A stretch of DNA of 23,934 nucleotides from a virus, in the IMG/VR virus record IMGVR_UViG_3300018428_000180, positions 1-23,934 of that record; one strand, given 5' to 3'. How positions within the stretch are numbered: the stretch's first letter is position 1; every line of letters starts with the position of its first letter. Both the position numbers and the translations under genes were made by a program. Below the pieces are notes generated by a model, which searched no databases, was not told the DNA's origin, and worked only from the letters and a program-made list of their open reading frames with translations. Shown here piece after piece: positions 2,349 through 23,934 of this stretch.

Positions 2349-3269
2349 TTATACAGTAAAAACTTTCTTGCCTTTAATATTCGGTGAAATAGCAATTAAA
2401 TCACGGTTTTCTAAATTAGGACAGAATTTGCATTGTGGGAGTACATTGTCAATTTTAGCAAAAAATTCTAGTCCCCGGTTATCCCAATCTTGCATAGTCA
2501 AAGGAGCATATTGCCCTATTAGGTTTTTGTCTTCTGCACTAATGTCCAAATCATGTTGTGTCAAAAATTCAGGAAACAAAGCAACAGGCCCACATTTGTA
2601 AACTTTTCCATTCACAATGTGGTAATTCTTGTTGTTAGCCTGTCCGCAATGACGATGTGCATCCTCTGGCTTGTTGTTTCTTAATGTTAAATTACCTGCT
2701 TGGTTTCGATACACTGCCGCTGGTTCAAATTTATCCTGTATCCACACACGCACCTGCACACCATTTTTGTCTACCCAAGAGTAATCACAAAAATCTTCAT
2801 TTAAGGCGTCTCTTTCGTGGTGCATAAAACTGGCAATTTGATCAAAAAGTTCTTCTAATGGACTTGCGTTGTGCCAACTTATACCTATCCAATTTGGCCA
2901 CCCATTGTATAAATTGTGTTGAAAAGCAAATTCTTCTGTGAATAAATCATACACATTTTTTCTTTTGTTCAGCAAGGTACCGTTTGTAAGGGTTTGACAT
3001 TGTCGTTGCCAGTTTGTGCTCACACCGGTTATCCAGTCATTCAATGAAGGATTAAGAAACGGTTCTCCCCCAAGGATGGTCATTTGCGGTGCGAATAATT
3101 TTGTTGCCCAGAATTCAATTTGTGTTCGCAACGTGTTATAATCTTGCCAGCCTTTAAAATTATAATTGTTAAAACGATTGCAATTCTGACAGGTTAGATT
3201 ACAGGTGTTGTTGATATAAAATTCAAGTTTTGGCAGTGCCAGTCGGCCATCATCGGCTATTGTTTGCAT
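2349..3269 (-). CDS. Radical SAM protein with extra C-terminal cysteines
   Basis: Radical S-adenosylmethionine enzyme, 306 residues. CxxxCxxC at C23, C27 and C30 binds the catalytic 4Fe-4S cluster in this superfamily; ILGGEP at about 65-70 is the SAM-binding GGE motif. The C-terminal third has C208, C226 and a CxxC at C280/C283 in an arrangement like a SPASM or twitch auxiliary-cluster region. SPASM-type members commonly modify peptides or proteins, or activate partner enzymes, but the substrate cannot be read from sequence. Just downstream is the exonuclease; just upstream (7 bases) is a 113-aa unknown protein. Its own ribosome site is weak. No precursor-peptide gene with an obvious leader/core structure was seen next to it. 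Confidence 0.8.
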   Translation of the reverse strand: MQTIADDGRLALPKLEFYINNTCNLTCQNCNRFNNYNFKGWQDYNTLRTQIEFWATKLFAPQMTILGGEPFLNPSLNDWITGVSTNWQRQCQTLTNGTLLNKRKNVYDLFTEEFAFQHNLYNGWPNWIGISWHNASPLEELFDQIASFMHHERDALNEDFCDYSWVDKNGVQVRVWIQDKFEPAAVYRNQAGNLTLRNNKPEDAHRHCGQANNKNYHIVNGKVYKCGPVALFPEFLTQHDLDISAEDKNLIGQYAPLTMQDWDNRGLEFFAKIDNVLPQCKFCPNLENRDLIAISPNIKGKKVFTV

Positions 3270-10714: not shown

Positions 10715-12415
10715 ATGGCAAACGAAATAGAACAGATACAGAGTTTATTAGATGAATTTAGGCGACCAGTACCAAACGGTGAACAATATCAAGATAGACT
10801 TGCTGAAGAGTTTGAAATCATACTACAGCAACGTTTCACAGACTACTTCTTAAAGATACGCAAAATATTGGACCTCAATGAGGACATACCACACATGACC
10901 CGCGGTAGTGCGGGTAGCAGTTTGGTGTGCTATCTCATGGGTATAACGGATGTGGATCCAATAGAGTGGAAGATTCCATTGGCACGTTTCTTAAATCCAC
11001 ACAGGGACGACTTACCTGACGTGGACATTGACGTACCGCATCACAAACAAGAACTAGCAATGCAACGGGTGTTTGACACTTGGCCCAATCAAAGTGCTAG
11101 GATATCAAACTATGTGTTATATAGAGAAAAGAGTGCAAAAAGGGAAGCGGCAAAACGTTTGGGTGCAAAAGGACGCTTGCCCAGAGATATAGACTATGAA
11201 AAACTGGGTGTGGATGTTAAAGAAGCAACCCGCATAGAACGTAAACTGCTAGGCAAGAAGCGTTGCATCAGCAAACACTGCGGTGGTGTACTAGTATTTG
11301 ACAGGGCACTTCCTAAGAGCTTGTTCCGTGAAGACAACCTAATACTGTTGGACAAAAACGAAGTAGAGGATTTGGAACACCTGAAAGTGGACATACTAGC
11401 CAACAGAGGACTCAGCCAACTGCTAGAAATAGATCCCAATACTCCACTGCATGAATATCCTAAACAGGATGATGCCACTGCTGACTTGCTATGCCGCGGT
11501 GATGTACTGGGTGTTACACAAGGCGAAAGTCCTACAATGAAAAGATTATTCCGTGCCTTGCAACCCACAGGTGTAGAGGACTGTGTGTTTGCCAGTGCAT
11601 TGGTGCGTCCTGTTGCCATGGAAGGCAGACGCAAAGCAAGTTGGTTCCGCGATTGGACAGAAGAAGGCATCAAGAAAAACGCCATTGTGTATGAGGATGA
11701 TGCTATAGACAAAATTATGAAACTGATTGGCATAAGTCCATACGAAGCAGACATGTATCGCAGAGCGTTTGCCAAAAAGAATGAAGAAAAGATGATGGAG
11801 TTCATGGGCAGGCTAGGTGATCATCCTGACAAGTATGACATCTATGATCAAATGCAAACACTATCAGGCTTTGGCTTGTGTAGAGCACACGCTGTAAACT
11901 TGGGCAGGCTCATATGGGCACTGGCATATCACAAGGTACACAATCCTAAACAGTTTTGGCGTGCCTGCTTGATGCACTGTCAAGGCAGTTATGCACGTTG
12001 GGTGTATCGCAATGAAGCAAAACGTGCTGGCTGGGACTTGCGTGACCTAGGCTTTGACAACTGGGTAACTGAAGATCCTGTACAAAGTTTCCTAGACAAG
12101 GGTGCTTGGAACAGCCCTGGCTTTTTACCAGGCATGGGCTTGCAAAAACTTTACTTGGATAAGTTTCAGTTTGCTGGCATAGTTGCAAACAGCAGAGTGT
12201 TCAAGTGCGATGCTAAAAGTTACATACATTTTATCACACTTGGTGTAGGCGAAGGCAAGTATGTAGACATAGTTGTGGACAAACCTGTAAAGTATTCAAA
12301 TGGCAGTGTGGTGTTGGGTGAAGGAGAACTGCATCACAAGGACAACAGCGAATACCTAAAGGTAAAACGCAAAAGTGTTAAGGTTATGCCTATAACAGAC
12401 TATGTTACTTGTTAG
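10715..12415 (+). CDS. Family C (DnaE-like) DNA polymerase core lacking the PHP domain
   Basis: 566 residues matching the catalytic core of bacterial Pol III alpha. In order: a helix ending FTDYFLKIRKILDL (36-54), RGSAGSSL (63-70, palm), FLNP (92-95), PDVDID (101-106) giving D104 and D106, a reduced thumb (about 115-185), HCGGVLVF (188-195), KVDIL with D226, TQGESPTMKRLF (268-279), RPVAMEGRR (298-306), ADMYRRAFAKK (345-355), and GFGLCRAHAVNLGRL (385-399), the counterpart of FNKSHxxxYA. Residues about 500-555 look OB-like. The PHP domain (normally about 270 residues), the helix-hairpin-helix and the tau-binding tail are missing, so it is about half the usual length. T4-like phages normally replicate with a family B enzyme, making this unusual. 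It is alone on the plus strand and converges on the helicase gene with an 11-base overlap. Activity is inferred from the conserved triad. Confidence 0.85.
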   Translation: MANEIEQIQSLLDEFRRPVPNGEQYQDRLAEEFEIILQQRFTDYFLKIRKILDLNEDIPHMTRGSAGSSLVCYLMGITDVDPIEWKIPLARFLNPHRDDLPDVDIDVPHHKQELAMQRVFDTWPNQSARISNYVLYREKSAKREAAKRLGAKGRLPRDIDYEKLGVDVKEATRIERKLLGKKRCISKHCGGVLVFDRALPKSLFREDNLILLDKNEVEDLEHLKVDILANRGLSQLLEIDPNTPLHEYPKQDDATADLLCRGDVLGVTQGESPTMKRLFRALQPTGVEDCVFASALVRPVAMEGRRKASWFRDWTEEGIKKNAIVYEDDAIDKIMKLIGISPYEADMYRRAFAKKNEEKMMEFMGRLGDHPDKYDIYDQMQTLSGFGLCRAHAVNLGRLIWALAYHKVHNPKQFWRACLMHCQGSYARWVYRNEAKRAGWDLRDLGFDNWVTEDPVQSFLDKGAWNSPGFLPGMGLQKLYLDKFQFAGIVANSRVFKCDAKSYIHFITLGVGEGKYVDIVVDKPVKYSNGSVVLGEGELHHKDNSEYLKVKRKSVKVMPITDYVTC

Positions 12416-13811
12416 CCTTGAGTCCTGCTAGCATCTGCTTGAGCTTGGTGCTTTCAACATCTGCTCGTATCTTTCCTGGTTCATTTTCAACTGCGGCACT
12501 GTCTTCCTCGCCAGTCATAGTGCTCTTGCTCTTGATGCTTTCATAGATACTACTGCTACGCTTCTTGAACTCTTGGTAATCTTGATCTTCGCCTAAGTCA
12601 CGAATACGCAGGCTCTCCATGTCAAACTCCAAGTCTACCTTTTGCCCTACACCCGAACTTGAACGTGTCTTCATTGCTTGTATCTGATAGCGTCCGCGCT
12701 CACGCATTGCTCTGCTTGTAAAGATACCAAACACGTTGTCAGCAGTGTTGATCTTGGATATACCGCCTGCAATGTGGCTGTGATCAAACTCAATTTCTTC
12801 TACTGCACTACGGTTCAACTGCGATGCTGTTACAAACAGTATGTTCATTTCCCTAGCCAAGTTGCGTAGTTCTTCTGAAACATACTTGTCTTTTACAAAC
12901 TGATCATTTGGGCTTACCTTTGCACTCACCGGCATCAACAAGTCCAAGTAGTCAACACACATAAAGTCAATACCGCGTCCAGTTTTAATTTGTAACTCTT
13001 TGCAGAATGCACGAACATCATTTACGTTGCTCTGTGCTGGCATGTATTTGATCTGCAGGTTACCGGCTTTCTTCTTCATCATCTTGACTTTCATTTCCAC
13101 AGTGTCAAGATCCTTAAACAGTTGCTTTGCGGCTGTGTTAGTCAGCATACTGTCAATACGCATAGCAGTCAAGCCTTCACTGAGTTCTAGCGTAATGTAC
13201 GCACCGTTAAGTCCTGCTTCCAACCAATTCACAGCCAAGTTCTGCATGAACAAACTCTTACCCGAACCTGATCCACCTGCAAAGATCTGTAGTTCGCCTC
13301 TGTTGAATCCTCCATAAAGTAGTTTGTCTAGTGCAGGCCAACCTGTGCTATTCTGTCCGTTGTTGTCTTTGAGTGCCGCAAGTCTGCCACGCGGATCCTC
13401 AAAGTAGTCTGTACCCAAGTCCTTTGTCAAACTAATCTGTACAGCATCCTTGATCAGTTTTTCAACAGGATCATATGTGCCTTTCTCCAACAGGTCAGCA
13501 CTCTTGAGGATAGCACGTTCTAGTTCTTTGCGTCGGGTAAAGCCTTCAAACTCCTGCAAACACCAATCCAAGTGTCCTTCATTTAGCTCTGGAATCTCTT
13601 GCAGTGTAACACCAGTTACTGCTTTTATCTGTGCCCTGTCAGGCAATGTTTTGTGTTCGTTGGTATGTTCATAGATAAACTGTGCAGTCTCTCTCAAGTG
13701 CCTGTCAAAGTTTTCACTGTTGAATATGTTCTGCACACGCAGGAAACTCTGTGCATCCTGCATCATGATTTCTAAAAATAGTTGCTGTACTTCAGGTGAA
13801 TAATCTTTCAT
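12405..13811 (-). CDS. 41: Replicative DNA helicase, gp41/DnaB type
   Basis: Hexameric replicative helicase that would unwind the fork and work with the primase encoded just upstream. Start taken at the ATG at 13811 (MKDYSPEVQQLF), with TAGG 6 bases upstream; in-frame ATGs at 13817 and 13859 would overlap the SGNH gene further. From this start, residues about 1-140 are the helical N-terminal domain; the RecA-like domain follows with Walker A GGSGSGKS at about 179-186, an acidic Walker B strand (IDFMCVDYLDLLM), the Gln-containing VTASQLNRSA motif, and an arginine-rich IQAMKTRSSSGVG strand. About 469 residues, usual for gp41. The stop overlaps the end of the convergent DnaE-like gene by 11 bases, leaving no room for a terminator. 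Confidence 0.92.
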   Translation of the reverse strand: MKDYSPEVQQLFLEIMMQDAQSFLRVQNIFNSENFDRHLRETAQFIYEHTNEHKTLPDRAQIKAVTGVTLQEIPELNEGHLDWCLQEFEGFTRRKELERAILKSADLLEKGTYDPVEKLIKDAVQISLTKDLGTDYFEDPRGRLAALKDNNGQNSTGWPALDKLLYGGFNRGELQIFAGGSGSGKSLFMQNLAVNWLEAGLNGAYITLELSEGLTAMRIDSMLTNTAAKQLFKDLDTVEMKVKMMKKKAGNLQIKYMPAQSNVNDVRAFCKELQIKTGRGIDFMCVDYLDLLMPVSAKVSPNDQFVKDKYVSEELRNLAREMNILFVTASQLNRSAVEEIEFDHSHIAGGISKINTADNVFGIFTSRAMRERGRYQIQAMKTRSSSGVGQKVDLEFDMESLRIRDLGEDQDYQEFKKRSSSIYESIKSKSTMTGEEDSAAVENEPGKIRADVESTKLKQMLAGLKANK

Positions 13812-14500
13812 TGCCATCCTAAATTTTGTGTCATTGGTTTTATCACTTGTGTGTACCATTCATTGTTACCAGCCTCGCCATGGTGTCCTTGCCATTCCCA
13901 TTGGTCGAAATCAACTGGTTTGTGTTTGCCCTTGTTTACACTGTAATAGGTATCCTGCAGATTAAAATTATTTCTGTTTTGTATTTTATCTAATACTGCT
14001 TTCAATGGCGTCCACTGTGTATCATTGAGGAAAGGCGCACTAGCATTTACCACAGCAATATCTTGTGTAAAATATTCACACAGCAACAACATGTTTCTTA
14101 TTGTCACTGCTTGGTTATAACTCATGTTCCAACCCATTAAATGATATTTGCCGATATCGGTAATACTAACATTGATCATACCGCTATGACTGTCTACTGG
14201 TATGTGCTCTTGTAAATCTAAATCGTTGTTAAATATTTGTGCATGCTCAAGTGTGCTTGTTTTTTCATCGTATGCTACGGTACGTCCAATTGGCGGTAGA
14301 GCAATAATAATTTTATCTTGTTGATTGATACGTTGTTGATTACAGAACAGTGTATGCACAATGCATTCAACACTGTTGGTAGGCCAACTCCAATTTGTTA
14401 CAGGAGTATCCATATCCTGTGCTAGTCTTCCCCACCAACTGTGTGCCTTTTCTACACAATAATCTGGAGTGCTATAACTATCGCCAAAAACGTGTAACAT
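13808..14500 (-). CDS. SGNH-hydrolase-like protein between primase and helicase
   Basis: 230 residues. The N-terminus MLHVFGDSYSTPDY has the block I GDS motif with Ser8 as the possible nucleophile of the SGNH/GDSL fold; IIIALPPIGR at about 64-73 suits the strand carrying block III-type residues. Near the C-terminus WQGHHGEAGNNEWYTQVI is a plausible equivalent of block V with its His. Family members are esterases, lipases or glycan deacetylases; similar GDS proteins occur in marine phages with unknown substrates. The ATG shares one base with the primase TAA (TAATG) and the stop overlaps the helicase start, so it is translated within the replication operon. Whether it is an enzyme is uncertain. 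Confidence 0.6.
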   Translation of the reverse strand: MLHVFGDSYSTPDYCVEKAHSWWGRLAQDMDTPVTNWSWPTNSVECIVHTLFCNQQRINQQDKIIIALPPIGRTVAYDEKTSTLEHAQIFNNDLDLQEHIPVDSHSGMINVSITDIGKYHLMGWNMSYNQAVTIRNMLLLCEYFTQDIAVVNASAPFLNDTQWTPLKAVLDKIQNRNNFNLQDTYYSVNKGKHKPVDFDQWEWQGHHGEAGNNEWYTQVIKPMTQNLGWQ

Positions 14501-15471
14501 TAACTTAACTTGCTCCGCAAACGTTTTTTAGCCATTTCAATTTTGATCTTGCCGCTTACACGGCTTTCCATTATCATCAGCAGTGTAGTTATCTCTCCAT
14601 AACGACAAACAGCATCATTGACGTCTTTTATGTCTGCTGGCCAGTCAGGTATGCTTACACTATAGTTGTATTCCAGTGCGCTGTCAATCAATTTGAGTCC
14701 AGCCTCATCCTGGTCAGGCACCACAATGATTTCTTTTTCCAAACTGCGTATCAGTCTGCTTTGTGCTTCATTGATGTTGTTGTGTAACACTGCCAAGCCA
14801 TTGATGCACAGTGCATCAATTACACCTTCGACCACAATAGCGTACTGCCAATCAGGCTGTTGCAGGTCTGTACCAAACACATAGCCTGGTTGTATGTCCT
14901 GTATATACTTGGGTATCCTGCCATCAATGTATCGTGTGGCATGTCCTACTATGGTGTTGTTGTGTGTGAAGGGTATTATAAATCCTACACGGGCACTGTG
15001 TTCTACATCCTGCGTCAAGTACGGATAGTCTTCAGGCAAACACCTATCCTCTATGTACTTCCACAATACTGTGTCTTTTTCAATCTTGTATGCACGGCTG
15101 GGCAATTCACGTTCTTCAAACTCAATGTTCATTAAACGTTGTTGGATTTGTTGACGTTCTAGTGCAAGTCCTTCAATGCTACGATGACGGAGACTTTCAA
15201 GATTGATGCGTTCTATTTCTTCCTGCGGTACGTTGAACCAGCCCAGCAAACGTTTGGCTTTGAAACTGAGATTGCGTCCCAACATAAAACTTGCAGTGAA
15301 GCCACAATTAAAACAGTGGTAGCTCCACGAGTCTTCGTTGAACTTGATGCCGCCACGTCCACGCTTGTCTTGGCTTTCGCCATTGTGTACACAACAGGGT
15401 GCATTGAATGAGATCCATCCGCCTGAGGTTTGTTTGCGTTTTGCTGGCAAGTAAGTTAGAAGATCAATCAT
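14500..15471 (-). CDS. 61: DNA primase, gp61/DnaG type
   Basis: Makes the RNA primers for lagging-strand synthesis with the gp41-type helicase. An N-terminal zinc-binding domain is visible: C26/C27, H29 and C53-x2-C56 (SYHCFNCGF). The TOPRIM core has the glutamate motif VVEGVIDAL (E215) and the acidic pair in VPDQDEAG (D253, D255). Total 323 residues, close to gp61. The ATG at 15471 gives MIDLLTYLPAKRKQ, which fits the family N-terminus. No ribosome site is visible; instead the start lies in the loop of a perfect 11-bp inverted repeat beside a TATAAT box, which suggests special control. Confidence 0.9.
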   Translation of the reverse strand: MIDLLTYLPAKRKQTSGGWISFNAPCCVHNGESQDKRGRGGIKFNEDSWSYHCFNCGFTASFMLGRNLSFKAKRLLGWFNVPQEEIERINLESLRHRSIEGLALERQQIQQRLMNIEFEERELPSRAYKIEKDTVLWKYIEDRCLPEDYPYLTQDVEHSARVGFIIPFTHNNTIVGHATRYIDGRIPKYIQDIQPGYVFGTDLQQPDWQYAIVVEGVIDALCINGLAVLHNNINEAQSRLIRSLEKEIIVVPDQDEAGLKLIDSALEYNYSVSIPDWPADIKDVNDAVCRYGEITTLLMIMESRVSGKIKIEMAKKRLRSKLS

Positions 15472-16521: not shown

Positions 16522-16529
16522 TATTTATG
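16522..16529 (-). promoter_or_regulatory. Late promoter box CATAAATA for the structural gene
   Basis: The minus strand reads CATAAATA; the box overlaps the ATG of the plus-strand gene. Its leader carries TATAAT and GGAG before the ATG at 16500. Confidence 0.55.
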
Positions 16530-16904
16530 GGCCCAGAAGTATTTGAAAAATTAGCAGAGCGTTACCCTTTTATAACATTTTGCACCTACGCAGGTAACGA
16601 GTATGTAGGTGTTATACAAAATCAAGACGATATTGTTACAACCATCTACGACTTTGGCAACATTCAAAGTGCCGAGTTAAAAACATTATTCCTTGATCTA
16701 GCCAACGTATGGTGGTGGGAAAGCAATCGTAGCATACCAATAAACATCTTCCTCAAGGGTGAATGGGATCCATTTAAGCCTTACTTGAAAACATTTATCA
16801 ACAAGGATCTTGACATACTGCATGGTCCTTGCACAAGCCTTGCGGAACTTAGCCGCAAAAAAACAAAACGCAAAAGCATCACACTAGTACGGAAAATTGA
16901 TTAA
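16527..16904 (+). CDS. Conserved-type phage hypothetical protein, 125 aa
   Basis: Function not recognised. Mixed alpha/beta, with an unusual run of aromatic residues (NVWWWESNRSIPINIFLKGE, about residues 60-80) and a basic end (RKKTKRKSITLVRKID). The WWWESNR...PINIFLK pattern resembles, from memory, a small protein of T4-like marine phages. No catalytic motif, signal or membrane segment. The ribosome site is weak (AGAG). The stop TAA overlaps the next gene's ATG (TAATG), so it forms a two-gene late unit with the SGNH-like protein. Confidence 0.75.
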   Translation: MGPEVFEKLAERYPFITFCTYAGNEYVGVIQNQDDIVTTIYDFGNIQSAELKTLFLDLANVWWWESNRSIPINIFLKGEWDPFKPYLKTFINKDLDILHGPCTSLAELSRKKTKRKSITLVRKID

Positions 16905-17647
16905 TGAATACTCTGTTGGTTAACGGTTGTAGTGCCACTCGCAGCAAACCAGATGAAACCACTTGGGCAGATCATTGTTGCAAGCACTTTGGATTTACCA
17001 ACTACAAAAATATGGCAATGCGAGGTGCAGGAAATCAGTACATTTGCGACAGCACAATCTATATATTAGAAACAGAACAGCACTCTCCAGTGGATACATT
17101 TGTGCTCATACAATGGACCTCCATCACACGAAAAGATGTTACCGTCAGCGGCGAATGGTACTACAACATCAAAGATGAATATACATGCGTAAAAGAGACA
17201 GCATCTGACCTTTACCATGTACACAGTGGCGGATGGTTGAATTACAGTTGGGAACACAATCGAGTTACTAAAAAATTGTTTGATCAGCAATATAAAATGA
17301 TTGATCCTCGAGGTATGGGCATAGATAGCTTGTTGTGTTTTATAAAACTGCAACACTATCTCGAATCCAAAGGGTTTAGCTACGCTGTAACCACAAACAA
17401 CTATCATTTCGACGAGTTGGAACCTACAAACATTCACGGAGAGTTTCACCTTGGGTATTTTTGTAAAGACTTAGATTTGTACAAAAATTTTGCATGCAAA
17501 AATTGGTTTTATGCAAACAAAAACCAAGGCATCAACGATTATGCTTTCAGCATGAACCAATTACATAACAGACATGCGACTGAATTAGCACACAAAAAAT
17601 TTGCAGAAGATGCGGCTATTCCGTACTTGCAAAAATTTATCCACTGA
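16904..17647 (+). CDS. SGNH-hydrolase-like protein, 247 aa
   Basis: The N-terminus LLVNGCSATRS has a G-C-S in place of GDS, with Ser10 in the block I position. MAMRGAGNQYICDS (about 40-53) fits block II/III with its Gly and Asn, and FVLIQWTSITRKDV (about 66-79) fits the strand after it. Near the end LHNRHATELAHKKFAED resembles block V, where His follows an acidic or Asn residue (DxxH). Proteins with GCS-x-T and W-T/S-S-x-x-R motifs are widespread in marine phages; their substrates are unknown. Late promoter and coupling to the 125-aa gene suggest a late or virion-related role. The last 11 bases overlap the end of the opposite-strand mini-DnaE gene. Confidence 0.6.
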   Translation: MNTLLVNGCSATRSKPDETTWADHCCKHFGFTNYKNMAMRGAGNQYICDSTIYILETEQHSPVDTFVLIQWTSITRKDVTVSGEWYYNIKDEYTCVKETASDLYHVHSGGWLNYSWEHNRVTKKLFDQQYKMIDPRGMGIDSLLCFIKLQHYLESKGFSYAVTTNNYHFDELEPTNIHGEFHLGYFCKDLDLYKNFACKNWFYANKNQGINDYAFSMNQLHNRHATELAHKKFAEDAAIPYLQKFIH

Positions 17648-18197
17648 GTAGGTTGATGTGTAGTGCAACCAACCTGGCATAGCTGATGCTGTGGCTTTTC
17701 TTAAAAGTAAACCCAGCACTGTCATCTCCATCCCATACACTTGCAAACACAGTTTCCCAAGGCTGTCGCTGTAGGTGTGCCTTGCCTGGACGAATGATAG
17801 CAATAAAAGCCGCCATTCTGGGAATACTATCCGGACGCATGTCACACACTAAATCATGATAGTTGCTGATGTGTACAACCTGTTCACAGAACTGTTTATC
17901 TAATAATAAATCCCAATTTGGTTCTTGAGCAAGCATGGCGTCATAATGAGCTTGGTCACGCACTAGTGTGTACACACTTTGATTTAAGAAGTCAATCTTG
18001 AAGTATCCACGATCCTCGGCTTCGCGATAATCAATGCTTGCACAGTTGTGGATTGGATCAATGGGAATAGGAGTTACATACACACCCGAGTTGTGTTTAC
18101 GAACTTCCCCATTATTTTCTTGACGTGCAGGTACATGCTTGATTAGTTCAAGTATGCGATTACGATCTGCAAAGTCTATATCTACATCAGCACTCAT
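17637..18197 (-). CDS. Miniature DnaE-like (family C polymerase palm/fingers) protein, 186 aa
   Basis: Motifs of Pol III alpha appear in the correct order in only 186 residues. ADVDIDF at residues 3-9 matches PDxDIDF (D6 and D8 as catalytic-type Asp); RKHNSGVYV at 33-41 matches the HAAGVVI strand; EDRGYFKIDFLNQSVYTL at 61-78 matches the KxDFLGLxTL motif with D69; RPDSIPRMAAFIAIIRPGK at 121-139 matches the RPDxxxDIxALxALxRPGP fingers segment; FKKSHSISYA at 165-174 matches FNKSHAxAYA. The PHP domain, the upstream palm, the thumb (between residues 9 and 33) and everything after the fingers are missing. All three aspartates survive, so it is not simply decaying. Similar small proteins occur in T4-like cyanophages as unknowns, from memory. 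The ATG overlaps the preceding TGA by 11 bases. Polymerase activity is doubtful; a regulatory or binding role is possible. Confidence 0.75.
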   Translation of the reverse strand: MSADVDIDFADRNRILELIKHVPARQENNGEVRKHNSGVYVTPIPIDPIHNCASIDYREAEDRGYFKIDFLNQSVYTLVRDQAHYDAMLAQEPNWDLLLDKQFCEQVVHISNYHDLVCDMRPDSIPRMAAFIAIIRPGKAHLQRQPWETVFASVWDGDDSAGFTFKKSHSISYARLVALHINLLSG

Positions 18198-19389
18198 TGA
18201 ATTTACTATTATAGTGTTGCTTGATTATTTTGTCAAACTTTTCGACTGCTTGTTTTCCATTCTGTTCTGTAAAGAACTTATGGAAATTAGAAAGTATCAT
18301 TTCTTTGCATTTATCTTCTGCGAATACCCATTGATTATCATATAACCATGCAACTGCGTCGGCTTGTGCAATGTGACGCAGTTGATGATCGCACTCATTA
18401 TCCCACTGTTTTAACTCGTCTGGCAAAAGACTCCATGCTGAGTAGTATCCATAATCATGCATCATCTGATGAAAATGCGCACCAGCAACCGGAAAAGGCA
18501 TGACTCCTGCTATGAAACATTTCCAACTTTTTTCTGTCAATGCAAATTCATCGTTGATCCATACTGTTTCAGGATAAACAATACAATTATTTTCATAATA
18601 GTATGGCAGTAGAAAACATCCTGGATTTATATCACCTCTTGTATTGTTGACATCCGGTGTTTGTCTACCTGGCAATATACTATCAGCATAATAGGTCCAA
18701 TCTTGTTGGCTTTTAATCGTGTAGATTGTATTGCACAAATCTTTAAACTCTGTATCCTCTACAGTTTCAATTACGCTGTCAAAGGTTTCATATACTCCAC
18801 TGCTCAATACATTATGAAGATTCACACCAGGGCACTGTTGCCCAATACATAAAAAGAAATGTTGTCTTACACTTTTGTTTCTGCCATTGATATAGGTAAT
18901 ACCATTTCGTGTGTCATTGGCATTCCGTTGACTGTAAAAAGTTGGATAAAACGGACTACAGTAAAATTCTTTAAACATTTCATGGAATGCTTGTCTTTCC
19001 CACAATATGTTGTTGTTCCAATCAGGTCGGTTATAAAAGTAACTGTGCAACTGAAAATATACATTAGGTTGTTTATTGTTTAGAAGATCACCAATGGTTT
19101 GTGTGCTACACACACTGAGTGGTTCTGTGCCATTGTCAATGAACACCACATCAAAAGTATCCAACAGTTGAAGTATGCTATCGTCAGGCAAGTGATGCAG
19201 AAGAACATTAAACTCAGTCTGATCAAGATCCTGCCCGGTGTATTCAGATACAGTGATGTCACAGGTGACACGATAATTAGGCTGATCGAGGTATTGCAGA
19301 TATGCCGCCCACTGATCAACTATTTGATGAGTAACAACACCCTGATTAGGTGGTGATTCATTGATTGTATAAAAATTAACTTTGTGCAT
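18187..19389 (-). CDS. Glycosyltransferase-like protein, copy 2 of a tandem pair
   Basis: About 400 residues. The second half has ENNCIVYPETVWINDEFAL, TEKSWKCFIAGVMPFPVAGA and HFHQMMHDYGYY (about residues 260-315), which resembles the acceptor/donor loop of GT-B fold glycosyltransferases of the fucosyltransferase/exostosin type (TEK...AxxAGxxPVxxG). YINGRNKSVR lies mid-protein and VFIDNGTEPL in the first third. It shares these blocks, in the same order, with the gene directly upstream, so the two are tandem paralogues. Likely role: glycan or DNA-base glycosylation; inference only. It starts 14 bases inside the end of the upstream copy and overlaps the mini-DnaE start downstream. No signal peptide. 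Confidence 0.6.
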   Translation of the reverse strand: MHKVNFYTINESPPNQGVVTHQIVDQWAAYLQYLDQPNYRVTCDITVSEYTGQDLDQTEFNVLLHHLPDDSILQLLDTFDVVFIDNGTEPLSVCSTQTIGDLLNNKQPNVYFQLHSYFYNRPDWNNNILWERQAFHEMFKEFYCSPFYPTFYSQRNANDTRNGITYINGRNKSVRQHFFLCIGQQCPGVNLHNVLSSGVYETFDSVIETVEDTEFKDLCNTIYTIKSQQDWTYYADSILPGRQTPDVNNTRGDINPGCFLLPYYYENNCIVYPETVWINDEFALTEKSWKCFIAGVMPFPVAGAHFHQMMHDYGYYSAWSLLPDELKQWDNECDHQLRHIAQADAVAWLYDNQWVFAEDKCKEMILSNFHKFFTEQNGKQAVEKFDKIIKQHYNSKFNEC

Positions 19390-20554
19390 AAAATTTCTTT
19401 GCGTAATGTTGTTCTACGACGTTATAGAATTTTTCAATTGCCTGTACACTGTCCCGACTTGTAAAAAACTGTGTATAGTTTTGTTTCCGAATGTTTACAC
19501 ATTCTGCACTGTTAAAAACTTCTTCTTGATGCTCGTAGAGCCACTGAATGGCTTCAATTTGCTGTTTCATTCTTTGTTCATGATCTAACACAGTATCAAA
19601 GCTTCGAAGCGCATGCGGTAACAAGTGATAAGCTGTGTGGTAGCCCTTTTGTGAAAACATTTGATGCAAGTTTGCGCCACCGACGGGAAAAGGAATACTA
19701 CCACTTATGAAACATTTAGCACTTTTTTCAGTGATACACAGCTCATTGTTGATCCATGTTGTTTCTGGGTACACCACACAATTATTTTCGTAATACAAAT
19801 CTAACATTTGCATACCCGGTGGCACATTACCAAACTTACCGTTTGCTCCGATCTCAAACCCTTGATCGTAATAATCCCATTGTTTTTTTCCATTGGTGCA
19901 CTTCTGATTGCATGCATCTCTAAATTTGGTATCGTCGGGGGTTTCAAAAAAACTGGTCATGGTTTCCCAAACATGTTGACCACTTAGTGCATTATAAATA
20001 GGCACACTAGTATTTTCTGCCAGCATGCTTAAAAAATAGTTACGAACACTCTTGTTTCTTCCATTTATATAACTCATCCCATTACGTTGTTTGGAAGAAA
20101 ATCTATCCTTGTAATAAAACGGATAGAAGGGACGTGTATAACAGTCTCGTACAAGATCATTCCACGCATTGCGTGAAATCAGTTTGTCCGAAAACTTTTG
20201 TGTATGATAAAACCTACTGTCACATTGTACTAGTATATTTTTCCGATCACTTGTGATCAGATCGTACAGCACCGTCGAACAAACTATCCCAAGTGGTTCA
20301 ACTCCATTATCTAACAAAACTAAATCAAACTTATCTATGTAATCATAAATTTGTTCATCAGGATTGACCCAATGTAGGATATTAAATTTATCTGGATCTG
20401 GATCTTTGTCGAATTGGTTGTAAACTTGTTCGTACTGATCATCGACTTGAAAATTTTCACTTACGCTTTGCACATAGGCATACCAGCAGTCAAATATTTG
20501 ATTGCCAAGATCGTGATCGTTTATTGAGTAAAATTTAAATTTACGAATTACCAA
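19376..20554 (-). CDS. Glycosyltransferase-like protein, copy 1 of a tandem pair
   Basis: About 392 residues from a TTG at 20554 that overlaps the preceding stop (TTGGTAA) and has AGG upstream. A longer in-frame TTG at 20623 would overlap the zinc-finger gene by 76 bases and adds residues with no match to copy 2, whose Met aligns near FKFYSIND here. Shared blocks: LLDNGVEPLGI, YINGRNKSVRNYF, YYENNCVVYPETTWINNEL, and TEKSAKCFISGSIPFPVGGA with HQMFSQKGY. The last is the GT-B-like TEK...AG...PFPVxG segment. The copies differ much in between, so the duplication is not recent. Substrate unknown. Confidence 0.6.
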   Translation of the reverse strand: MVIRKFKFYSINDHDLGNQIFDCWYAYVQSVSENFQVDDQYEQVYNQFDKDPDPDKFNILHWVNPDEQIYDYIDKFDLVLLDNGVEPLGIVCSTVLYDLITSDRKNILVQCDSRFYHTQKFSDKLISRNAWNDLVRDCYTRPFYPFYYKDRFSSKQRNGMSYINGRNKSVRNYFLSMLAENTSVPIYNALSGQHVWETMTSFFETPDDTKFRDACNQKCTNGKKQWDYYDQGFEIGANGKFGNVPPGMQMLDLYYENNCVVYPETTWINNELCITEKSAKCFISGSIPFPVGGANLHQMFSQKGYHTAYHLLPHALRSFDTVLDHEQRMKQQIEAIQWLYEHQEEVFNSAECVNIRKQNYTQFFTSRDSVQAIEKFYNVVEQHYAKKFYAQS

Positions 20555-21234
20555 CCTGCCTGTTTTAATATTTCTTCGGCGTATGCTTGATCCGCTGGAT
20601 AGTCCCGAAACTTCTTCTGCCAAAAATCACTGTCTATCCACGGCCACACTATTTGTATCTGCTCTGTGTTCATGTTGTTAAGGAACTGTTGTCCACTGGC
20701 ACAGTTGTAGATGATCCATGGGCTTATCTTACCTGTGCTTATAGCATAGGTTACCGTGTTGCTGTTGCCATAGCGTAGCACATCATGTGGCTCACAACCC
20801 TTTTCCTCACCCCAGGATATAGAGTAGTTTATAGCACGTTGTAGTGCGTCTGTGAGTGCTTCTGTGCGCAGATACTGTTGCAAGTATTCATCATACATGC
20901 TGTCCTTAGCCCAGTGATCCAGTTTCTTGTTATTTTTTAGCAACCAATCAATGTAGCGTTCTATGTTGATTGCGTTGATGTTCACACACTGTCTGCCAAA
21001 TTTTACAAACGCATTATAGTAAGGGCTCTTGGCAAAGTCATCATAGCTCTTGAACTTGGCTGATCCTTGTGTCATTTCATAGAAACGCAGATAGGCGTTC
21101 AGTCCGATCTGAACACCCTTTTCATTTTGCTGTTGATGTCTGCGTTTAGGTTCGCAAAGGTGTACTGCTAGTGTGCTTTCTTTCTTGAAACCTTTCTCAC
21201 AGTATTTGCAAACATGACTACTTGTCGTTTCCAA
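20548..21234 (-). CDS. Zinc-finger phage protein of unknown function, 228 aa
   Basis: The N-terminus has a single zinc-finger-like motif: C-x2-C, 12 residues, then H with a Cys two residues on and a further His (VCKYCEKGF...STLAVHLCEPKRR), so C2H2 or C2HC type. The rest (about 35-228) is helical, with aromatic-rich stretches (GVQIGLNAYLRFYEMTQ; IERYIDWLLKNNKKLDHWAK; IQIVWPWIDSDFWQKKF), and is a conserved domain I do not recognise. No ATG lies near the finger, so a TTG at 21234 with GAAGG upstream is the likely start; it overlaps the clamp-loader candidate by 17 bases. The finger and the replication neighbour suggest nucleic-acid binding, by inference. Confidence 0.7.
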   Translation of the reverse strand: METTSSHVCKYCEKGFKKESTLAVHLCEPKRRHQQQNEKGVQIGLNAYLRFYEMTQGSAKFKSYDDFAKSPYYNAFVKFGRQCVNINAINIERYIDWLLKNNKKLDHWAKDSMYDEYLQQYLRTEALTDALQRAINYSISWGEEKGCEPHDVLRYGNSNTVTYAISTGKISPWIIYNCASGQQFLNNMNTEQIQIVWPWIDSDFWQKKFRDYPADQAYAEEILKQAGW

Positions 21235-22770: not shown

Positions 22771-23361
22771 TTATTTCCTTTTTAGTATTACGCCAACATC
22801 TTTGGGTGATTTGATGTTCTGCACAATATCGAATCCTTTTGCCAGTAACCATACAACCACCGGGCCGCACTTGCCTACCCAACAGTCATTGAGTGTGTAA
22901 GTATCATCGAATGCTACAACAGCATCGTCAGATAGAAAAGGAAAGATATAAACCATCTGCTTCATGTGTTCAACTTGGCAGTTTTGATTTGTCATTTTTA
23001 TGCCTAATTTTTCACTGTAGAAACTTTGCTGTTTACGAAATTCATCATCGTGGCCGCCAATGACGCTCCAGTCATAATCAAAGTTATCTAAGTAAACAAA
23101 ACCAACTGTTTTATCCAACAAGGGCAAATCGTCTTTGCACCAATCACTGCCATTTTTTATGTGCCAGTGGGTTGCCAAATGCGGTAGACGCCTTTTGGCA
23201 TGGGGTATTACATCCACACTATGAAACTCTGTTGAGTATTTCCGTGCCAGATTATCAATATACTCGGTACTGCCCTCATATCTATCACTGCCAATTTCTA
23301 AAAAAATACTCTTTGACATGTCACCAAGATATGGTTCAATGTCTCTAAAAACTTGACCCAC
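22771..23361 (-). CDS. SAM-dependent methyltransferase-like protein, about 196 aa
   Basis: Motif I IFLEIGSDRYEGST (about residues 19-32) fits the SAM-binding loop; FHSVDVIPHAKR carries the acidic motif II residue; VGFVYLDNFDYDW fits motif IV, and DDAVVAFDDTY is the following strand with an Asp pair, as in the Methyltransf_24-type class. I take a GTG at 23361 as start because GGAG lies 8 bases before it; a GTG at 23370 adds three residues but its ribosome site is too close. It overlaps the uvsW stop. It is distinct from the methyltransferase further down. Substrate unknown. Confidence 0.65.
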   Translation of the reverse strand: MGQVFRDIEPYLGDMSKSIFLEIGSDRYEGSTEYIDNLARKYSTEFHSVDVIPHAKRRLPHLATHWHIKNGSDWCKDDLPLLDKTVGFVYLDNFDYDWSVIGGHDDEFRKQQSFYSEKLGIKMTNQNCQVEHMKQMVYIFPFLSDDAVVAFDDTYTLNDCWVGKCGPVVVWLLAKGFDIVQNIKSPKDVGVILKRK

Positions 23362-23934
23362 TATTTCCACTCCATGCGTTCTTGCGTGAATGGATAATTT
23401 GCTTCTTTGTAGAACTGTTTGCGTTTGGTGAGATGACGTTTTGCGAACTTGCAGGTACTGGTTACGTCCCAGATTTGGACATAGTCTTTGTCTTCAGCTT
23501 TGCGAATGCCGCGTCCAATGCTTTGAATTACGCGAACAAAACTTTTGCCAGGCTCAATGAGAACAAGATTGAATATGCGAGGAATATTAATCCCAACAGC
23601 CGCAACTCCGTAGGTCGCAACAATGATCTTGCCTTCCGATATTTGTACTTCATCATAGTGGTCTTGACGCTCGCCGGCTTTGGTAGCACCGGATATGAAC
23701 ACACTGTTAGGCAGACGTTTTACCAACTCCTTACCGGCGTTTACCCGGTCGACCAGTATCAGTGTGTTGCCTGTTTTGTTAACCTCATCAACAAGGCTAG
23801 CAATAGCGTCCAGTCTGCCTTCTTCTTCTAACAAGTATTTAAGTTCGCTTTGATAGTTATTATGTTCCACGTGATCGACCAGTTGCACAACGTTCACATG
23901 ACACTGTGCTAGCACACCCTTGTCTTGTAGTTCG
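23361..23934 (-). CDS. uvsW: UvsW-type DNA/RNA helicase, C-terminal part (continues past the window)
   Basis: C-terminal RecA-like domain of a superfamily 2 helicase; the frame is open to the window edge, so the N-terminal part with the Walker A and DEAD-box motifs lies beyond it. Visible motifs: TLILVDRVNAGKELVKRLPN (motif IV region), IIVATYGVAAVGINIP (motif V), and FVRVIQSIGRGIRKAEDK (motif VI Q-x2-G-R-x2-R with arginine fingers). T4 UvsW unwinds branched DNA and R-loops and controls the switch from origin-dependent to recombination-dependent replication. It ends ...ERMEWK-stop and overlaps the methyltransferase start. Assignment to UvsW rather than another SF2 helicase rests on the T4-like context. 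Confidence 0.8.
   Translation of the reverse strand, partial: ELQDKGVLAQCHVNVVQLVDHVEHNNYQSELKYLLEEEGRLDAIASLVDEVNKTGNTLILVDRVNAGKELVKRLPNSVFISGATKAGERQDHYDEVQISEGKIIVATYGVAAVGINIPRIFNLVLIEPGKSFVRVIQSIGRGIRKAEDKDYVQIWDVTSTCKFAKRHLTKRKQFYKEANYPFTQERMEWK

Follow-up and report, generated by a model that had tools for sequence, protein, structure and literature searches.

The locus described here raises the question of how a viral protein of 186 amino acids (aa) can carry the active-site motifs of a bacterial replicative DNA polymerase. The protein is encoded in a stretch of 23,934 nucleotides, the IMG/VR virus record IMGVR_UViG_3300018428_000180, which was analyzed in full and is called the window here. 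Its open reading frame (ORF) occupies positions 17637-18197 on the minus strand and begins with ATG. A first-pass annotation of the window had described the product as a 186-aa miniature DnaE, the alpha subunit of DNA polymerase III (Pol III). Our results point instead to one half of a two-gene enzyme. Judging from sequences and predicted structures, the protein is very probably the C-terminal half (C-half) of a permanently split, minimal family C polymerase that has neither thumb nor PHP domain. The palm half with the GxGRGS motif is a separate gene (N-half) in nearly every sufficiently complete relative.

The motifs quoted in the first-pass annotation are all present, on the minus strand, which it had left unstated. 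They are DVDIDF (D4, D6, D8), HNSGVYV (H35), YFKIDFL (K67, D69), RPDSIPRMAAFIAIIRPG, and FKKSHSISYA. The protein matched PHROG 11778, annotated as "DNA polymerase" (E=7e-60), and also phrog_405, the family of long DnaE proteins (E=2.7e-5). The AlphaFold2 (AF2) model had a pLDDT of 89.5. In a Foldseek search of the PDB with this model, ranks 1-13 were all Pol III alpha chains (probability 1.00, best E 2.5e-4), and only chance matches came afterwards. The homology to DnaE proposed earlier is borne out by the phrog_405 match and by a model that resembles only Pol III alpha; the TM-scores of the AF2 models of both halves against Pol III alpha were mostly 0.3-0.5 of the query. Profiles were required to see the relationship, since a single-sequence search of the PDB with the protein returned only chance CD1a matches. 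A viral scan using the C-half of phage CM1 as query gave no match.

Homologues with less than 60% identity were found by tblastn in 63 phage records of INPHARED, and relatives are encoded in 407 IMG/VR stretches. The 63 records belong nearly all to jumbo phages (RaK2, K64-1, 121Q, GAP32, CBB, PA5oct, Atu_ph07, Phosso, SCTP-2, and XacN1), and not to cyanophages, where homologues had been expected. Many phage records label the C-half "hypothetical" or "membrane protein", so the enzyme is easily overlooked. The C-halves of the marine relatives are under purifying selection, with a median pairwise ratio of nonsynonymous to synonymous substitutions (dN/dS) of 0.094 (range 0.03-0.22). Their Asp codons differ only synonymously (GAC vs. 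GAT), as the earlier argument for selection on these residues had anticipated. By every sequence measure, the ORF is real and functional, and it is homologous to bacterial Pol III alpha.

In family C, the residues equivalent to D401, D403, and D555 of E. coli are absolutely conserved, and D405 is a further Asp that all DnaE groups share (Timinskas et al., PMC3919608). The weak hidden Markov model alignment of the C-half to DnaE is shifted by two residues at the Asp. We preferred the register fixed by several members with PD[VI]DID, in which D4, D6, and D8 (DVDID, codons 4-8, 18174..18188, minus strand, as are all features of the C-half) correspond to D401, D403, and D405. D69, in the K-I-D of codons 67-69 (17991..17999), aligns with D555. 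The catalytic trio had been read as D6/D8/D69 and should be D4/D6/D69, with D8 as the equivalent of D405. In the AF2 model, D4, D6, and D8 sit on a predicted strand (residues 5-9) and D69 on another (residues 68-72). D4, D6, D8, H35, G38, K67, and D69 are the same in all 87 distinct sequences, and R136, P137, K139, H169, and Y173 in all 86 that cover them; the RP[GAS]K segment is invariant as well. The fingers O-helix starts with KKSH (codons 166-169, 17691..17702), where S168 corresponds to S759 of E. coli and H169 to H760, which was modelled as the steric gate excluding ribonucleotides (PMC8485763). The strict retention of H169 favors an enzyme that uses deoxynucleoside triphosphates (dNTPs).

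The C-half (17637..18197) retains the catalytic palm strands and reduced fingers, without thumb, PHP, clamp-binding, or OB domain. The absence of PHP and thumb had been noticed correctly: in the alignment, residues 9-34 (18096..18173) form a short helix and a hairpin (predicted helix 12-18, strands 22-28 and 31-40) at the place of the Pol III alpha thumb of about 80-100 residues. The description of the protein as "palm and fingers" holds for the catalytic palm strands and only in part for the fingers, which are incomplete; about 100 residues between the RPG (641) and the KSH helix (741) of E. coli DnaE are cut to about 25. Because thumb, complete fingers, and PHP are absent from both halves in alignments and profiles, the two halves are a minimal variant of family C and not a canonical DnaE.

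The N-half is PHROG 11127, a palm half of about 160-180 aa that ends where PHROG 11778 begins. Its GxGRGS motif is invariant in 38/38 distinct sequences. In nearly all cases the N-halves stop 0-2 residues past EFL[KR] (...WGVGRGSSVASYVLYLLGVHKIDSMYYDLDPGEFLR-stop), and the C-halves start 2-14 residues ahead of DxDxD, e.g., MSADVDIDF. The breakpoint always lies just ahead of the PDxDxD catalytic strand, and this conserved position indicates that the N-terminus at the catalytic loop, rightly observed before, is explained by a gene split. The N-half profile aligned with residues 322-392 of E. coli DnaE (E 3e-4) and with no other PDB family; the C-half profile aligned weakly with residues 402-421, 600-641, and 741-767, and no other family matched. 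For the AF2 model of the N-half, the only high-probability structural matches were to Pol III alpha, and in hhalign comparisons with a profile of single-chain phage DnaE both halves fell in the expected neighboring regions (probability 93 and 96).

Both halves were present in 11/11 isolates (RaK2, Atu_ph07, Phosso, Paride, CM1, XacN1, SCTP-2, Vibrio phage 2.275.O, CBB, 121Q, and Alishewanella phage Slicko01), and the N-half was found in 6/6 large genomes with a C-half that were searched for it. The RaK2 N-half query retrieved 63 INPHARED records, as did the C-half query, with a nearly identical make-up of organisms. Searches with one half or the other yielded 15 IMG/VR contigs of 200 kb or more, of which 13 had both. 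We rejected a stand-alone 186-aa polymerase, since in the relatives a gene of its own encodes the palm half with GxGRGS. A split produced by frameshift or assembly was also rejected, since many genomes sequenced independently of each other have the halves at a distance of 11-230 kb. A comparison of 124 C-half ORFs and 60 N-half ORFs revealed no natural fusion of the two. The distance matrices of N- and C-halves are correlated (r=0.84 over 19 genomes, Mantel p=1e-4).

Two observations on the N-half are given here for completeness. In Slicko01 (L199), a non-jumbo phage of 141 kb, the halves are about 11 kb apart and the N-half has a different end (FAELSKEM). The N-half also seems to have its own genomic neighborhood: in Atu_ph07 and in contig G001 (L087, L091), the second gene downstream is a short ORF that resembles the GroES/gp31 co-chaperonin.

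Several results weigh against the assignment to a split polymerase. The similarity of the C-half alone to DnaE is weak: a Pfam scan of the 186-aa protein gave zero matches, and the E-value of 0.06 of its profile in the PDB is weak by itself. The fingers of the C-half lack the stretch that holds the usual dNTP-contacting RR...KK motif, and the thumb is lacking too. In Pol III alpha this deleted stretch normally touches the dNTP triphosphate through RR...KK. The correlation between N- and C-half distances is expected from shared descent alone. Two of the 15 large IMG/VR contigs, G027 and G031, hold only the N-half, and may be incomplete. Finally, the window is a record of 23,934 bases, in which the N-half of this phage was not seen; it would lie outside the contig.

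The sequences strongly imply two chains with one active site. The C-half would be the half that contacts Mg2+, primer/template, and sugar, through the metal-binding Asp D4, D6, and D69, through K67, and through the KKSH of the O-helix, which includes the steric-gate His. The N-half would contribute the part of the palm that carries GxGRGSS and, in Pol III alpha, binds the triphosphate of the incoming nucleotide. We infer that the halves associate, rebuild a single active site, and add dNTPs, and we consider it fairly probable that the pair carries out templated DNA polymerization. Such an enzyme would be distributive, as it has neither thumb nor clamp-binding domain, and for this reason the filling of short gaps, repair, or an accessory role on one strand is more likely than the copying of the genome. 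Genome replication probably falls to the T4-type family B polymerase that these phages also encode; a family B polymerase was present in 25/26 of the relatives' genomes or contigs, and the window fragment shows none.

The window encodes a second family C polymerase, a single-chain PHP-less DnaE of 566 aa (10715..12415, plus strand) with palm, fingers, and all catalytic motifs (DNA_pol3_alpha E=1.8e-40, DNA_pol3_finger E=1.3e-16). It has RAH in place of the KSH motif and retains an RR...KK-type segment, YRRAFAKK. Homologues of 564-585 aa occur in five of the 15 large IMG/VR contigs (G001, G002, G005, G006, and G026), and in many relatives they lie at most 10 kb from the C-half. None of the 11 isolates has a single-chain DnaE. 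The nearest INPHARED match was in LR756508, a 484-kb uncultured phage (36% identity), in which no separate Pol III halves were found. The 566-aa DnaE is probably an independent enzyme rather than a component of the split polymerase.

The alternative that survives best, which we regard as unlikely and yet worth weighing, is that the two halves form an active nucleotidyltransferase of the Pol beta superfamily, which transfers a nucleotide to some acceptor, such as an end or a protein, and is not a templated polymerase. The earlier suggestion of a minimal nucleotidyltransferase stands in this form, for both halves together, and falls for the 186-aa protein alone. It would account for the loss of the thumb and of the middle fingers, with the usual dNTP-contacting segment among them, together with an invariant core of GxGRGS and three Asp. 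The invariance of RP[GAS]K and of the O-helix FKKSH, whose steric-gate His discriminates for deoxyribose, argues against it, as does the placement of the C-half gene in a replication and recombination cluster.

Far less probable is a decoy or inhibitor of host Pol III, in which the fragment would bind the host clamp, epsilon, or DnaE without chemistry. Phages do make replication inhibitors, and the C-half resembles part of the host DnaE. However, the fragment has no clamp-binding or PHP domain to serve as bait, and a partner with the matching half of the active site co-occurs with it. The catalytic Asp and the steric-gate His are invariant across very diverse hosts, which favors a working dNTP enzyme over a decoy. 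The first-pass proposals of a decoy or of a clamp- or template-binding remnant are thus disfavored by the same counts (Asp 87/87, steric-gate His 86/86, partner GxGRGS 38/38).

The idea that the C-half is a decaying remnant of a complete phage DnaE, for instance the 566-aa protein, deserves almost no credence: a full single-chain DnaE does lie about 5 kb away in the window clade, but the ORFs are intact in many loci, the dN/dS is 0.094, the active site is invariant, and the C-half occurs together with the N-half even where a single-chain DnaE is entirely lacking (it is present in 0/11 isolates). Cyanobacterial DnaE is split and rejoined by trans-splicing, but a split intein is practically out of the question here, since the termini of the two halves leave no room for intein fragments (0-2 residues after EFL[KR] and 2-14 before DxDxD) and the cyanobacterial break is at a different position.

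Returning to the C-half of a split polymerase, its gene has a characteristic setting. In the isolate phages it lies between uvsX/uvsW and the genes for the gp61 primase and gp41 helicase, and the window retains this gene order around it. The T4 gp61-like DNA primase (14500..15471, minus strand) matched phrog_47 (E=6e-31) and belongs to the same replication cluster as in RaK2, 121Q, and Phosso; the T4 gp41-like, DnaB-like replicative helicase (12405..13859, minus strand) matched DnaB_C (E=1.6e-20) and phrog_19 (E=4.5e-67). On the other side, the end of a helicase-like gene that appears UvsW-like by eye is found at 23361-23933.

A convergent neighbor of 125 aa (16527..16904, plus strand) belongs to PHROG 11637 (E=8e-34) and is a candidate partner of the C-half. 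We examined 124 C-half loci, including duplicate records; all that extend far enough to show it (116/116) have the PHROG 11637 gene in convergent orientation to the C-half, usually overlapping or at most 0.8 kb away, and the remaining 8 end too early to judge. The protein has a WWW-SNR core and a basic KRIKRR tail, and a Pfam search with it gave no explanatory match. In Slicko01, the convergent neighbor ORF (108 aa) had no PHROG 11637 match. A three-part enzyme of C-half, N-half, and PHROG 11637 protein, in which the neighbor would hold DNA as a substitute for the thumb and which in the marine clade would stand beside a family B replicase and the single-chain DnaE, is a speculative and rather doubtful extension of the two-chain arrangement.

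Between the C-half and the PHROG 11637 gene there is an ORF of 247 aa (16904-17647, plus strand), which overlaps the 3' end of the C-half by 11 bases and had no significant PHROG or Pfam match. Upstream, two tandem paralogous ORFs of 400 and 415 aa (18187-19389 and 19376-20623, minus strand), which share YINGRNKSVR, separate the C-half from the gene that directly adjoins it in the close relatives L002 and L012. A peptide, SSIRRRNxKTGRLV, seen upstream of the C-half in some relatives, was discarded as another reading frame of the end of this upstream gene. Elsewhere in the window, a 306-aa ORF with CNLTCQNCNRF (2349-3269, minus strand) looks by eye like a radical SAM enzyme.

Compared with bacterial DnaE, the split enzyme shares the equivalents of D401, D403, D405, and D555, the GRGS and RPG motifs, KSH with the steric-gate His, and the palm topology. 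It differs in consisting of two polypeptides of about 350 aa in total vs. about 1160, without PHP, thumb, clamp-binding, or OB domain and with the middle fingers deleted. If the halves cooperate, the pair would rank with the smallest known polymerases of family C and would reveal which parts of the replicase are dispensable for chemistry.

This kind of split Pol III has already been described, and the protein of the window is a further member. The passages of Iyer et al. (2021; PMC7824862) on group 2.2 jumbo phages report a split minimal Pol III alpha with the same anatomy, and Atu_ph07, a group 2.2 phage there, has both halves here. The C-terminal piece with the Mg2+-binding Asp that starts at the DxDxD strand is found in the window; the separate N-terminal NTP-binding piece and the family B DNA polymerase of the same genome are found in its relatives. 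CBB_328 of Pectobacterium phage CBB, called a truncated Pol III alpha in the account of that genome (PMC5259590), is the N-half of the same enzyme; the relevant part of that account records only this half, and the CBB C-half is annotated as a putative membrane protein. Our literature search, which reached few subscription papers, found neither a bench test of the split arrangement nor a later paper on it.

To these descriptions we add the exact conserved breakpoint, residue assignments that include the steric gate, estimates of selection, co-occurrence counts that extend to a 141-kb phage, and the constant convergent neighbor, of which the consulted passages of Iyer et al. (2021) make no mention. 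Slicko01 (141 kb) shows that the split also occurs outside the jumbo phages. Unlike the phages treated there, the clade of the window consists of uncultured, mainly marine phages. According to the same passages, such phages hold no other Pol III domains; 11/11 isolates agree, whereas the window and the five contigs with a single-chain DnaE differ. This exception concerns the content of the genome and not the protein, which still belongs to the split Pol III family. The marine clade has the split Pol III alongside a PHP-less DnaE in one chain, and its near-complete relatives have a family B polymerase as well, which poses the question of how the labor of replication is divided in large phages.
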